Part shown: positions 3,183 to 53,773 of the stretch, in pieces
Layout: each line of letters starts with the position of its first letter
How positions within the stretch are numbered: the stretch's first letter is position 1
From: an uncultured Lachnospiraceae bacterium
Lineage (GTDB): Bacteria; Bacillota; Clostridia; Lachnospirales; Lachnospiraceae
Direction of reading: 5' to 3'
Assembly: GCA_900316165.1 (NCBI GenBank)
Contig: ONBW01000003.1
Location: 20,430 to 84,429, forward strand
Length of the DNA: 64,000 nucleotides
Translations under genes and position numbers: made by a program
The notes under the pieces: generated by a model
Database searches by the model: none
Told to the model about the DNA's origin: nothing
The model's input: only the letters and a program-made list of their open reading frames with translations

Positions 3183-3215
3183 AGTCTCCTGGTTTTTGAA
3201 ACTGGGAGGCTTTTT
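3183..3215 (+). terminator. Rho-independent terminator after the binding-protein gene
   Basis: A 13-pair stem (with G-T pairs) begins AGTCTCC at 3183 and returns as GGAGGCT ending at 3211, followed by a T-run. The loop is TTG. Confidence 0.85.
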
Positions 3216-3217
3216 AT

Positions 3218-3235
3218 GTACACATGACAGTGTAC
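3218..3235. promoter_or_regulatory. Inverted repeat GTACAC-N6-GTGTAC upstream of glpK
   Basis: Perfect 6-bp arms around a 6-base centre, about 50 bp before the glpK -35 element. It could be an operator for glycerol or global control; no cognate regulator is visible in the window. Confidence 0.3.
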
Positions 3236-3286
3236 GTTTCTGGTCGTTTATGCTCATTTATCGGCAATTTTTGCATTTTCGTTCTG

Positions 3287-3315
3287 TTGAGATGGATTCT
3301 GAGCAGTGTTATAAT
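3287..3315 (+). promoter_or_regulatory. glpK promoter
   Basis: TTGAGA at 3287-3292, 17-base spacer, TATAAT at 3310-3315. The SD GAAGGAG follows, then ATG at 3355. Confidence 0.7.
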
Positions 3316-3342
3316 GGTTTCGGGGTAAAAATTACAGTATAG

Positions 3343-4852
<1,510 letters not shown>

Positions 4853-25845: not shown

Positions 25846-25872
25846 TTAGCACTCGACTTTGATGGTTGCTAA
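25846..25872. promoter_or_regulatory. CIRCE-like element (HrcA operator) before lon
   Basis: TTAGCACTC, exactly nine bases, then GGTTGCTAA. The left half is a perfect CIRCE half-site and the right half matches 7/9 of GAGTGCTAA; spacing is canonical. It lies in the leader just after the promoter. Confidence 0.7.
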
Positions 25873-25898
25873 TAATAATCGATGAAGGAGGAAATCGC

Positions 25899-28208
25899 AT
25901 GACAGTATTGCCATTGTACAATGTGATGCTGATCCCGGAGACGAACCTGTACCTGCAGACGCAGGCATTTACAGCGATGACCGGGAAGGAGCCTGAGAAC
26001 CAGGAAAGGCTTATCATAGCAGCAGAGAAATCTCCTAAGAAGAGAGAGGAGATTACAGAGGACGACCTCTATCCTATTGGAGTGTCAGGTATTATCACAG
26101 AGATAAATTCCGATAACGGCTACATCGTGATCAGAACGAAGAAGAGAGCCGATATCACGGATGTTACTATTTTTGCAGACCATACGATAAATGTCACAGC
26201 CACAAGGCGTGAGGATACACCAGATGAGGAGATAAGCCCAGACGAGGAGAGAGCCCGTTTGGATAAGATGAAACAGGCGCTTGTCGGATATTTTGCCAAC
26301 TCACAGTATGGGAACCTGAGCAGAGGCTACATCGCGCAGTTTAATTCTATCTCAGAGGTTGCTGCAGCTATGAGCCCGTGGCTTTTCAACTCAGCTGAGG
26401 ACAGATATAAGGTCCTTGAGGAGGATTCGAAGGTCAAGCGTCTCGAGCTCATGGAGAAGATGATCTATGAGAACATCGAGATGAGTAACATCGGCGCTGA
26501 GGCTGCAAATGCTCAGGAGGCTGATTACCAGAAGATTTACAGAGAGTCAGCCTTGAAGAAGCAGATCGACTATCTGCAGAAGGAACTTGACGACATGCAT
26601 CCTGAGAACGTCTCAGATATCAGAAAGTTCGAGATCGCTCTTAAGGACAACGGCATGAATGAGGATGCCAAGAAAGAGGCCGAGAAGGTTCTCGGACGAC
26701 TTAAGCAGGAGGGTAAGAATTCTCCTGAGTACGGCATGCTCTATGATTACCTCGATTTCGTGACGACTCTTTCCTGGAAAAAGGAGGAGCCGAAGGATAT
26801 AGATTTGAAACAGGCCAGAGCTGTCCTTGACGAAGACCATTTCGGTCTTAAGAAGGTCAAGGACAGGATCATTCAGCAGATCGCTGTTATGAACCTGAAG
26901 AAGCAGCAGGCCGGTTCTATTCTTCTTTTCGTAGGTGCCCCTGGTACTGGTAAAACCTCTATCGGAAAGAGCATCGCGCGTGCACTTGGCAGGAAGTATG
27001 TCAGAGTTGCCCTTGGCGGTGTCCGTGATGAGGCTGAGATCAGAGGTCACAGACGTACATATATAGGAGCTATGCCAGGCCGTATCATGGACGGCATCCA
27101 CAAGTCGGGTGTCTCGAATCCTGTTATGGTCTTAGATGAAATCGACAAGCTCTCAGAATCCTACAACGGTGATCCTGCATCAGCACTTCTCGAGGTCTTA
27201 GATCCTGAGCAGAACAACAGCTTCACCGATCACTATATGAATGTACCGTATGACCTGTCAGATGTACTTTTCATCTGCACAGCGAATACTCTTGATACTA
27301 TTCCGGCTCCACTTCTGAACAGAATGGAGGTCATTGAGTTCCAGGGCTACACTCCTATCGAGAAGGAGCACATAGCAAAGGATCATCTGATCCCGAAGGC
27401 TTTTGAAAAGGCAGGAATTCCGAAGGACAAGCTTTCTATCGATGACGACGCCCTTGAGACGATTATCTCAGACTATACGATGGAGGGTGGTGTCAGAGGC
27501 TTAAAGAAGCGTATCGATACGCTCTGCCGTATTGCCGCTGTAAAGATTGAGTCAGGAGAATCGAGCGTTACTGTCCATAAGGATGAGCTTCGTGACTACC
27601 TCGACATGCATCCGCTACACCAGGATAAGGTCAAGGAAGAAGGCAAGCCAGGTATTATCACCGGTCTCGCCTGGACTCAGGTAGGCGGAACAATCCTTTA
27701 CATCGAGTCCCTGATGACTAAAGGAACTGGAAAGCTTACTATCACCGGTCAGCTCGGTGACGTAATGAAGGAGTCGGCAACGATCGCCCTCTCACTTGTC
27801 AAGGCTATGTACCCTTCAAAAATCAAGCTTCTTGAAAAGAGCGATATCCATATTCATGTACCTGACGGCTCTACGCCAAAGGACGGACCTTCTGCAGGAA
27901 TCACTCTTACAACAGCTCTTTCTTCACTGGTTACAGGCACAGCCGTTACACCGCAGGTCGCTATGACTGGTGAGGTCTCACTGAACGGTTCTGTAAATCC
28001 TATCGGCGGACTTCCAGAGAAGCTGATGGCAGCCCAGAGAGCTGGCGTAAAGCACGTCTTTATCCCTGAAGAAAATATGGACGACCTCCGCGATGTAGCC
28101 GACGAGGTCAAGAGCGCATTAGAGATCACTCCTGTAAAGCAGGTGACAGATGTTCTTAATGCCTTAAACATCCCGGTAGAGAATCCATCACTTCAGAATA
28201 ACAAGTAA
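25899..28208 (+). CDS. lon: ATP-dependent protease Lon
   Basis: 769 residues from ATG 25899, chosen for AAGGAGG upstream. N-terminal Lon substrate domain, central coiled region, AAA+ module with Walker A GAPGTGKT (346-353) and Walker B VMVLDEIDKL, then the serine protease domain with catalytic Ser665 in DGPSAG and Lys708 in PEKLMAA (43 apart, as in known Lon). It degrades misfolded and regulatory proteins in the cytoplasm. The CIRCE-like element upstream suggests heat-shock control by HrcA. Confidence 0.96.
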   Translation: MTVLPLYNVMLIPETNLYLQTQAFTAMTGKEPENQERLIIAAEKSPKKREEITEDDLYPIGVSGIITEINSDNGYIVIRTKKRADITDVTIFADHTINVTATRREDTPDEEISPDEERARLDKMKQALVGYFANSQYGNLSRGYIAQFNSISEVAAAMSPWLFNSAEDRYKVLEEDSKVKRLELMEKMIYENIEMSNIGAEAANAQEADYQKIYRESALKKQIDYLQKELDDMHPENVSDIRKFEIALKDNGMNEDAKKEAEKVLGRLKQEGKNSPEYGMLYDYLDFVTTLSWKKEEPKDIDLKQARAVLDEDHFGLKKVKDRIIQQIAVMNLKKQQAGSILLFVGAPGTGKTSIGKSIARALGRKYVRVALGGVRDEAEIRGHRRTYIGAMPGRIMDGIHKSGVSNPVMVLDEIDKLSESYNGDPASALLEVLDPEQNNSFTDHYMNVPYDLSDVLFICTANTLDTIPAPLLNRMEVIEFQGYTPIEKEHIAKDHLIPKAFEKAGIPKDKLSIDDDALETIISDYTMEGGVRGLKKRIDTLCRIAAVKIESGESSVTVHKDELRDYLDMHPLHQDKVKEEGKPGIITGLAWTQVGGTILYIESLMTKGTGKLTITGQLGDVMKESATIALSLVKAMYPSKIKLLEKSDIHIHVPDGSTPKDGPSAGITLTTALSSLVTGTAVTPQVAMTGEVSLNGSVNPIGGLPEKLMAAQRAGVKHVFIPEENMDDLRDVADEVKSALEITPVKQVTDVLNALNIPVENPSLQNNK

Positions 28209-28331
28209 ACAGCTTGCTGCACCTGAAATCGACGGTCTTTCCCTTCTTTCTTAATCTATTTGACATAGATTTCAGGCGCGGTAAGTTTTTATAGTAACTC
28301 ATTCATTTCAAACAATAGTAAAATGCCAATT

Positions 28332-28361
28332 ACAGGCGCCGCATCCGCGGCGCCTGTTTTT
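28332..28361 (+). terminator. Strong terminator downstream of lon
   Basis: ACAGGCGCCGC-ATCC-GCGGCGCCTGT, 11-bp stem, then TTTTT. It probably ends lon transcripts. Confidence 0.85.
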
Positions 28362-28374
28362 CGTTCTGGAGTTT

Positions 28375-28782
28375 GTTGCAACATAGCGCTGTTTAAGGAA
28401 GAAAAAATACAACGCGGAGCCGGAAGTTTATCTGTGCCCCTGGCCAGTTGCAACATGGAGGTGTTTTCAGAATGAAAAATACAAGTGCGCTCCGCGAGTT
28501 GCAATATAAAAGGGTTTCTTATGGCAAAAATACAAATGGAGATTTTCAGTTGCACTATAGAGGACTTTTTTGCTGAGAAAATACAAGAGACCGCACATCC
28601 GTTGCAATATATCACGTATTCTTTTTTAGAAAATACAAGTCGTTGTATTTTTTGGATTTCGCTCCGTAGTATGTTGCAACTCGAAGAAGGATTTGATATC
28701 TTTTTGTAAATTATCCGGCGTATGTTGCAACTGGTGGAAAGCGTTTGTATTTTATTTATTTCGCCCCGCAGTATGTTGCAAC
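28375..28782. repeat. Array of eight 38-bp elements with conserved ends and variable cores, five forward then three reversed
   Basis: Each element is GTTGCAAYAT, 19 variable bases, AAAATACAA. Forward copies: 28375-28412, 28447-28484, 28498-28535, 28549-28586, 28601-28638. Reversed copies: 28643-28680, 28694-28731 (AAAATACAA end degenerate), 28745-28782. Linkers are 13, 13, 14, 13 and 13 bp (34 between the first two, 4 at the turning point), so the main period is 51 bp, near five helical turns. Cores and linkers differ between copies, so this is not a CRISPR. The two groups face each other, and AAAATACAA-GTCG-TTGTATTTT (28630-28651) forms a 9-bp hairpin at the centre. Confidence 0.85.
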
Positions 28783-28821
28783 TAGAAGACACCGGCAGTC
28801 TCTTTATGGAGACTTGACTCA

Positions 28822-28862
28822 TAAAATAAGAAATCCGGCACAGAAAAGATTCCAGTGCCGGA
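28822..28862 (-). terminator. Terminator of the secreted-protein gene at 28959
   Basis: TCCGGCAC (28834-28841) and GTGCCGGA (28855-28862) form an 8-bp stem; on the minus strand a T-rich tail follows. Confidence 0.65.
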
Positions 28863-28958: not shown

Positions 28959-30143
28959 TTACTTTACTGTGACTTTGTAAGTTCTGTAGAACTTTACGAG
29001 AGTTTTTGACTCCGGAAAATTATTAACAGCTTGTTTGACAGTACTCTGCCATATCGGTGTATTAAAATTTTTTGTATGAGATAATTTTTTTGTTATTGTT
29101 ATGTCGAGTTCTGCGGAATCCTTTATCTTTGTCAAATCCCTGTATTCTTTTATCAGATATGGGTCACCAATTACAGGCATCATTTCATAATAACATACAG
29201 TTATATAAGCGGTTCCCTTCTTTAGACCTGTTACCTTACCTGTTTTTTTATCTATAGAAACAACGTCGCTACCAGACTTTACATTATCAAAGTTATAGCC
29301 TTTATTCTGCACCTGATAAGCCTTTTCAGTACCTGGGGTGTTGTGCATAAATCCCGTATGTGTTGGGTCCCAAGTAAGATAAGTCTGTTTATTCTTTTTA
29401 GCTTTATTGAATTCTTCCGGAGTGTAGGCCCTCCATTTCTGAATTATTCCGCAACTACCGCCATACCAATCGGAGCTTGGCATGTTTGATGGCTTGTTTG
29501 TTATAGTATCACCAACATTTATAGTCTTATCCTTGAGCTTGTCAGCACCATAATACAAACTGTATTTCAAATAACCCTTTTTATAAAGCTGGTTCATCTC
29601 CTTTATGGTAAGCATCATTGGAACGCTTTCAAGATAATGACCTACCCCGGTTTGTGCGCCATCAAAGCCAAAGTTTTGGAACGCTGTCCCGATACCATAT
29701 AAATCCTCTGTTGTTCCATACTTACATACATAGGACATATCCCCAAGAAGAATATCATAATCTATAAGCTTACTGTACTGGTTCTTAGACCTATATGCTT
29801 TAAGTTTCTTTAAAAGGTTTTTACCATAAGACCCAGATAAATATTTGCCAGTTACCTGCAGTTCATAAGGTGTACCCTTTACCTTTTTATAATATGACGC
29901 AGGCATACCACTATTCAGGAACCAACCGCCCTTCTTTTTAGACAGATTCTTGAACTTAAAAGACTTTGCGCTATCAAAATAGTACGAGTCTCTCTGGTCC
30001 GTCTTGTTCGCTAATCCAGTTTTGATTGAAGGGTACACGAAGTTCTGCATATCCTCGTTTCCTACATATACCGTGCCCTGCAGCATAAATGCTGTTGCGA
30101 GTACCGCTGCAAGTACCGCTGTCCATCTCTTTTTGTTTCTCAT
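28959..30143 (-). CDS. Secreted protein with a Big_2-type Ig-like segment, function unknown
   Basis: 394 residues with an N-terminal signal peptide (MRNKKRWTAVLAAVLATAFML). The main body (about 45-290) matches no family I recognise and is rich in Lys, Tyr and Gly. At about 295-330, DVVSIDKKTGKVTGLKKGTA is the signature of a bacterial Ig-like (Big_2) domain. No LPXTG sorting signal or lipobox, so it is probably released or held by non-covalent wall binding. It lies next to a signal peptidase gene on the same strand and looks more AT-rich than neighbouring genes, hinting at recent gain (inference). Confidence 0.7.
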   Translation of the reverse strand: MRNKKRWTAVLAAVLATAFMLQGTVYVGNEDMQNFVYPSIKTGLANKTDQRDSYYFDSAKSFKFKNLSKKKGGWFLNSGMPASYYKKVKGTPYELQVTGKYLSGSYGKNLLKKLKAYRSKNQYSKLIDYDILLGDMSYVCKYGTTEDLYGIGTAFQNFGFDGAQTGVGHYLESVPMMLTIKEMNQLYKKGYLKYSLYYGADKLKDKTINVGDTITNKPSNMPSSDWYGGSCGIIQKWRAYTPEEFNKAKKNKQTYLTWDPTHTGFMHNTPGTEKAYQVQNKGYNFDNVKSGSDVVSIDKKTGKVTGLKKGTAYITVCYYEMMPVIGDPYLIKEYRDLTKIKDSAELDITITKKLSHTKNFNTPIWQSTVKQAVNNFPESKTLVKFYRTYKVTVK

Positions 30144-53659: not shown

Positions 53660-53773
53660 ACTTAAAAATGACGATAAATATTCCGATGAACCTTTGAAAA
53701 ATGACAACGAATCATCATTTGAACATTTGAAAAATGACAATGAAACGATGCATGAACCTTTGAAAAATGACAA
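53660..53773. repeat. 33-bp tandem repeats upstream of the DUF4143 gene
   Basis: TTTGAAAAATGACAA occurs at 53693-53707, 53726-53740 and 53759-53773, each exactly 33 bp apart, with a weaker copy (11/15) at 53660-53674. The 18-base linkers are partly conserved (ending ATGAACC in two). The last copy supplies the -35 of the downstream promoter. Confidence 0.85.

Follow-up and report, generated by a model that had tools for sequence, protein, structure and literature searches.

The array of eight 38-bp units at positions 28375-28782 of the window (the whole 64,000-nucleotide stretch of DNA analyzed) probably belongs, as a copy without a gene, to a dispersed family of repeats that is part of a repeat-propagating, REP/RAYT-like system built on an unrelated nuclease. 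Because there are gene-bearing copies of this family, and many relatives of the gene, in kindred gut-type bacteria, have arrays of their own with other sequences, the whole looks like an unrecognized bacterial repeat-spreading system. Its putative parts are a stand-alone, roughly 257-aa protein whose C-terminal domain is PD-(D/E)XK-nuclease-like and arrays of short, oppositely oriented half-sites that adjoin the gene of this protein and would lie roughly on one helix face. Bacterial genomes often contain short dispersed repeats, and the maker is known for few of them.

The array in the window

Direct inspection of the sequence confirmed the eight units and their arrangement in two facing groups, with five right-pointing units (starts 28375, 28447, 28498, 28549, and 28601, forward strand) and three left-pointing units (28643, 28694, and 28745, reverse strand) separated by a 4-bp central gap that is bounded by AAAATACAA and TTGTATTTT. 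The exact pattern GTTGCAAYAT-N19-AAAATACAA is matched by six of the eight units and by nothing in 100 shuffles, while the remaining two deviate from it (GTTGCACTAT at 28549 and AAGATATCA at 28694). The gaps are, in order, 34, 13, 13, 14, 4, 13, and 13 bp; the linkers, described by the sequence-only reading as almost always 13 bp, generally have this length, one of them measuring 14 bp. The features of the array and its surroundings are as follows.

25866-28208, forward strand: lon protease gene, left neighbor (Pfam)
28332-28357, forward strand: terminator-like hairpin 3' of lon, just outside the array
28375-28412, forward strand: unit B5, outermost of the right-pointing arm (exact pattern match; positional class)
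28413-28446, forward strand: 34-bp linker with the outer motif of the family, GCGGAGCCGGAA (28414-28425), also found in G001 and G009 arrays
28447-28484, forward strand: unit B4 (exact pattern match; positional class)
28485-28497, forward strand: 13-bp linker between B4 and B3, gtgcgctccgcga, kept by position in several other arrays
28498-28535, forward strand: unit B3 (exact pattern match; positional class)
28549-28586, forward strand: unit B2 with the variant end GTTGCACTAT (unit tabulation)
28601-28638, forward strand: unit B1 (exact pattern match; positional class)
28630-28651, no strand: center AAAATACAA-GTCG-TTGTATTTT; its 4-bp gap (42-bp step) is common to seven two-armed arrays, six in this genome and one in G001
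28643-28680, reverse strand: unit A1 (exact pattern match; positional class)
28694-28731, reverse strand: unit A2 with the end AAGATATCA; AAGATA also occurs in A2 and A4 units of other arrays
28745-28782, reverse strand: unit A3 (exact pattern match; positional class)
28959-30143, reverse strand: gene of a 394-aa putative secreted protein (N-terminus like that of a secreted protein), right neighbor, convergent with lon

It had been stated that no gene crosses the array. A 177-aa ORF on the minus strand (28289-28822) does span it, but nothing supports this ORF as a gene, and a coding reading was set aside since the invariant unit positions follow no codon pattern by eye. No promoter-like (sigma70-like) site was seen in the window array, and a promoter array was rejected on this ground. 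The product of 28959-30143 has no Pfam match. A link of the array to secreted-protein genes was not established, as the immediate or near neighbors of the arrays are functionally mixed and include lon, clpB, Na/Pi transporter, VanZ-type, CAP-domain, and glycosyltransferase-like genes. Elsewhere in the window, a 33-bp tandem repeat of 3.3 copies (consensus AAAAATGACAATAAATAATCCATGAACCTTTG) lies at 53664-53773.

Arrays as copies of one composite

If the pattern had occurred nowhere else, or only at random spacing, the array would have counted as a chance or degenerate local repeat. Instead, six further arrays of the genome and a sister species show it again, at the same spacing and for the most part in the same facing arrangement. 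The guesses of the sequence-only reading, namely phased protein sites, a recombination repeat, or a family-specific repeat, pointed in the right direction. In the 2.59-Mb draft genome (G000), the exact pattern occurs 18 times, confined to contig C27 and to the contig of the window (C69), and looser scans give seven arrays, namely that of the window, a1 to a4 on C27, one on C102, and one on C15 that is only half an array. Related arrays are present in two sister species. At the genus level, a similarly exact pattern occurs in 2 of 13 genomes, and a strict center pattern in 2 of 397 sampled genomes of the family, both of this genus. The sole match to a relaxed center pattern, in a genome collection from which the window's own genome is possibly absent, was the MAG 'Lachnospiraceae bacterium isolate LCO1', a sister genome that has this array too. 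Its label confirms the Lachnospiraceae assignment and is listed alongside Candidatus Weimeria bifida (PMC6974650). A sequence-model search further detected single or degraded units on C37, C57, C59, and C31 of G000 and, in G009, a diverged version (TTTCAATATA..TCTACAA) with units of about 38 bp at a spacing of 49-53 bp. Viral contigs, phages, and plasmids contained no match to the array or half-site patterns, and a phage or plasmid origin of the arrays was rejected accordingly.

According to the ORF tables (short ORFs inside the arrays being ignored), all eight arrays found in G000 and G001 lie between genes, and their flanking gene pairs are convergent, co-directional, or divergent. Some of these intergenic regions have further features. 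Array a3 (L019 15877-16227, C27) lies behind a CIRCE-like TTAGCACT-N10-GAGTGCTAA site upstream of clpB, and a 33-bp repeat (TTGTCT..AGACAGAAAT) adjoins the array on C102 (L022 4071-4202). On C37, a stretch of about 200 bp with one unit is repeated (L042 1746 and 5953; L041 2809), and one of its copies sits just upstream of an Rpn-type (PDDEXK_2) gene. The Rpn-type protein was rejected as the protein of the family, since among five genome matches only one has a single unit, about 150-250 bp upstream.

To compare the arrays, 64 units in eight arrays were tabulated, selected by at most five mismatches to the unit ends. Positions 3, 6, 9, 30, 31, 33, and 35 are invariant in all 64 units, while the core is low in information. 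In each of the seven two-armed arrays (six in G000, one in G001), every unit was assigned to an arm and a position. Core identity was 0.583 for the same position in different arrays (148 pairs), 0.462 for other positions of the same arm in different arrays (488 pairs), 0.377 for other positions within the same array (184 pairs), and 0.285 for opposite arms (611 pairs). The cores, previously described as variable, are thus variable inside one array, but not to the same extent at matching positions of different arrays. End identity was 0.86-0.91 in every comparison class, a value inflated by picking units by end match. However, no unit is missing at positions A1-A3 and B1-B3 in the seven arrays, so that end-based picking is not the whole cause of the high end identity. 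Since cores are alike by position and ends are kept everywhere, whole composites have been copied and have aged, with mainly the ends retained. The arrays are copies of one composite and spread as whole composites, not as single sites.

Over 55 intervals, the unit spacings were 42, 51, 52, 62, 71, 72, and 73 bp, none deviating by more than 2.5 bp from whole 10.5-bp turns; this table omits a lone outer unit of a2 (L019 7683), which is 192 bp from its neighbor and about 3 bp off phase. As far as can be judged from sequence, the kept ends and the spacing are compatible with phased protein binding.

A nuclease-like protein encoded beside the arrays

Arrays a1 and a2 enclose the gene of a 257-aa protein on C27 of G000 (C27:5452-6222), with a VanZ-type gene also between them. 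At a second locus of G001, found via the G009-type pattern, two related arrays enclose an orthologue (54% identity to the G000 protein), and in G009 an array unit begins within 10 bp of the stop codon of the orthologue (64% identity). The arrays flanking the gene are, in our reading, inverted to each other in G000 and direct in G001, and therefore are not simple terminal repeats.

The three proteins gave no meaningful match to Pfam or NCBIfam, and searching 39 members singly against both libraries gave scattered weak matches, to at most three members per family. A PDB profile search yielded nothing convincing, and PHROGs gave weak endonuclease matches only (E 0.02-0.05). The 39 aligned proteins share the invariant motifs RSKxE, YE, PDF, and EHxG; E154, E171, D184, and E199 are invariant in all 39 sequences, and K216 is present in at least 90%. 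Among the PADLOC models, PDC-S68 matched 39, PDC-S69 33, and HEAT_CxxC_PD-DEXK 19 of the 39 members. The best PDC-S68 model reached an E-value of 3.8e-21 for the G000 protein and 9e-33 for the best member, the aligned part being the C-terminal model positions from about 1046 to 1250 of 1202-1273. Judged by motif knowledge and the PADLOC models, the C-terminal domain of the protein resembles PD-(D/E)XK nucleases.

No relative of the protein was found in viral contigs. Plasmids gave one partial match within a RecD-like helicase gene (43% covered) and none for the G000 protein, and a phage collection gave two matches, 81% and 47% covered. The better of these is a nuclease relative at 3192-3833 of an unannotated 4.2-kb fecal 'Bacteriophage sp.' scaffold (L137, MT839528.1), on which no obvious array was seen.

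Association of gene and array across relatives

Relatives of the protein were present in 52 of 245 related genomes, with 83 matches (profile A2). Forty-nine loci of these 83 matches were analyzed, 30 of them supplied by the search and 20 chosen before their flanks were viewed, minus one duplicate (L120 = L107). At least three chained copies of a 10-mer were found in the flanks of 30 of the 49 loci, compared with 1 of 26 control loci from a lon/clpB search (L059-L084; the window's own lon locus, L058, which does carry an array, is outside this range). The sole positive control was the clpB locus of G000 with array a3. As the lon/clpB controls are partly coding DNA and mostly of one genus, further controls were added. 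In 79 sides with a full 1450-bp flank, chained repeats were found in the near 725 bp in 27 and in the far 725 bp in 7; 24 sides had them in the near half only and 4 in the far half only. In 28 longer flanks they were near in 12 and far in 4. Only 2 of 44 segments of the window had chained repeats, namely the window array and a 33-bp repeat.

Similarly, a self-match scan revealed significant periodic repeats at 36 of the 49 loci, compared with 2 of 44 window segments and 2 of 27 lon/clpB-search loci, the latter both being arrays of the window's family. The other 13 homologue loci have no significant periodic repeat; contig ends truncate some of the flanks in these draft genomes. Half-sites in both orientations were present at 18 of 31 loci and at none of 25 controls (L072 omitted), and the same repeat family lay on both sides of the gene at 9 of 49 loci, one of which (L112) counts by AT-rich 9-mers only, and at none of 26 controls. 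The distance from array to gene had a median of 90 bp over 31 loci. Matches starting within 800 bp of a contig start (21 of 83 protein matches vs. 3 of 24 strong lon/clpB matches) were uninformative. Overall, the association of gene and array is well supported.

Array periods and helical turns

The main periods at the 36 loci were 50-54 bp (17 loci), 61-64 bp (6), 71-75 bp (5), 84-86 bp (3), and 94 bp (1), so that the periods beside the gene are near 5, 6, 7, 8, and 9 turns; periods of 23, 24, 28, and 32 bp, at one locus each, are outside these classes. Three composite shifts were reset by hand (L088 from 124 to 52, L089 from 71 to 51, and L111 from 107 to 53.5). For the 15 loci with periods of at least 58 bp, a cut chosen after the values had been seen, the phase concentration R was 0.77 at 10.5 bp, a value attained or exceeded by 4 of 200,000 random sets, and the best-fitting period of this set was 10.85. 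After collapsing close relatives and dropping the distant L102, the remaining 10 values gave R = 0.73, attained or exceeded by 537 of 200,000 sets.

Among close relatives, the period tracks protein kinship (22 of 29 nearest neighbors), an agreement that plain inheritance would also produce, while for neighbors at most 45% identical the period was shared in 8 of 29 (shuffled mean 10), giving no signal. This kinship test drops the loci with periods of 23, 24, 28, and 32 bp, L102 (repeat 1.3 kb away), L115 (one stop), and L119 (start too short). A 14/28-bp tandem repeat (CAAATTCCA) lies beside the homologue in the flank of L098 (G038 C36), outside the helical-turn classes.

Paralogues and their own repeat families

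In several intergenic regions (C15, C31, and C102 of G000 and C40 of G001), arrays or units of different families occur together. On C40 of G001, a 52-bp array (TTTACGKACT-N20-AGTCCGTAAA; L034 6390-7340) directly adjoins an array of the window's family, and 53-bp arrays with the ends TTACATACAGA-N17-TCTGTATGTAA are present on C15 (L021 4665-5247) and C31 (L044 2731-3110) of G000. Before the paralogues were viewed, we recorded the prediction that other arrays adjoining those of the window's family belong to paralogues of the protein, and it held for two of three paralogues (G001 C43 and G000 C64). The gene on C43 of G001 (L117) has the 52-bp AGTCCGTAAA family on both sides, the same family that occurs solo on C40, whose 52-bp array likely has this gene as its cognate. 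Likewise, the gene on C64 of G000 (L119), whose reading frame is open to about 262 aa, has the 53-bp TTACATACAGA family on both sides, and this family occurs solo on C15 and C31. The third paralogue, on C107 of G000, is accompanied on a single side by an unpredicted fourth family (TACGTGTGA, 53 bp; L118 2280-2660); on its other side recurs GATTCGAACC, a tRNA-like motif. Genes and repeat families thus match on both sides in three cases, namely fam1, the window's family (C27), fam2, the 53-bp TTACATACAGA family (C64), and fam3, the 52-bp family (G001 C43).

Proposed mechanism and alternative explanations

In the proposed mechanism, the protein would recognize GTTKCAAYAT and AAAATACAA, the constant ends of the units. 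The centers of these ends are separated by about 31 and 20 bp, corresponding to roughly 3 and 2 turns, and several subunits may bind along one face of the DNA. Cleavage followed by host repair would then copy or move arrays, with or without the gene, to other intergenic sites. No target-site duplication was visible by eye at a1, and the lon/clpB flanks viewed in related genomes, inspected by eye, were differently arranged with poor synteny and provided no clean empty site. It is quite possible, as a tentative wider reading, that undescribed stand-alone PD-(D/E)XK-type nucleases in many Lachnospiraceae make, maintain, and spread their own helically phased half-site arrays. With each paralogue serving its own repeat family, the system would functionally be a second invention of REP/RAYT.

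The arrays could also be operators through which the adjacent protein or another regulator controls transcription or folds the chromosome, their dispersal being incidental duplication. The kept ends, the spacing near whole turns, and the short distance to the associated gene agree with this, but the genes around solo arrays are functionally unrelated and occur in every relative orientation (convergent, co-directional, and divergent), the window array has no promoter-like site, and dispersal involved whole composites rather than single sites, so that we consider operators rather unlikely. A defense or toxin-like module, in which invading DNA would be the target of the nuclease and the arrays would serve to titrate the enzyme or to mark self, is suggested by the matches to the PADLOC candidate-defense models (PDC-S68 for 39 and PDC-S69 for 33 of 39 members). 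However, the PDC-S68 models have about 1200 positions and align in their C-terminal part only, and solo arrays away from the gene together with several families per genome fit self-spreading repeats better, which makes this module quite improbable.

Movement of the arrays as non-autonomous elements by an ordinary transposase (e.g., IS200/IS605), with the nuclease gene as a passenger, appears very unlikely, although Y1_Tnp matches are present on three G000 contigs and array a1 has the inverted motif GCGGAGCC at its boundary. Y1_Tnp was the family searched, and none of its matches adjoins an array, the nearest being about 8.7 kb away, while in many genomes members of the nuclease family are found next to arrays unrelated to one another. 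Finally, the ends may be kept for base pairing in an RNA or single-strand hairpin element. The central gap had been noted to form a hairpin, and in comparison with 30 shuffles the window array does fold better (z -3.7 and -5.2 for the two strands), but inverted repeats alone suffice for such a fold. Hairpin partners across the center share end variants no more often than non-partners (0.872, n = 23 vs. 0.864, n = 79), a result that speaks against the ends being kept for pairing. At gathering thresholds, Rfam gave no match in the window, L019, or L020, and an RNA element was rejected for want of an Rfam match and of covariation between hairpin partners; a hairpin of either kind is highly improbable. 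The nuclease-like gene gives a class of orphan repeats a direct candidate that can be put to the test, together with a candidate new mode of repeat spread.

Comparison with known systems

To our knowledge, no known system pairs such a protein with such arrays, and no such system was described in open-licence PMC papers among the matches listed; we therefore regard it as new in kind. A protein family without a curated name in the searched libraries adjoins arrays of unrelated sequence with periods near whole turns, which supplies natural protein-site pairs that may differ in specificity. The system could be said to work most like REP/RAYT/BIME. There, RAYT genes flanked by inverted REPs accompany dispersed repeats, a stand-alone gene lies between its own short repeats, gene-less copies are extragenic, and units are regularly spaced with alternating orientation (PMC2817692). 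Genes flanked by cognate repeats and dispersed gene-less intergenic copies were found for fam1, fam2, and fam3, the strict same-family test giving 9 of 49 loci. Unlike RAYT, the protein is not an HUH/Y1 tyrosine transposase, as it shows a PD-(D/E)XK-like pattern and none of 39 members has a Y1_Tnp Pfam match, and unlike REPs, the units measure 38 bp and have variable cores and periods near whole helical turns. Since the enzyme differs, the system is not a member of REP/RAYT, although a variant of the REP/RAYT kind is also arguable if layout is weighed over enzyme.

The PDC-S68 candidate defense proteins of PADLOC, whose models carry no description, align with the C-terminal part of the protein, but at about 1200 positions they do not share the full-length architecture of the stand-alone protein of about 257 aa. 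BOX repeats are modular in structure, and we know of no cognate nuclease alongside BOX or RUP. Both are small interspersed repeats of Streptococcus pneumoniae (PMC3049150), and the arrays resemble them in this by description. Regular spacing of constant and variable parts is shared with CRISPR arrays. The sequence-only reading called the end conservation the opposite of a CRISPR. Here the constant parts are short unit ends, and identical repeats with unrelated spacers are not what is found; the cores are inherited by position between arrays (58% alike), and units occur in both orientations.
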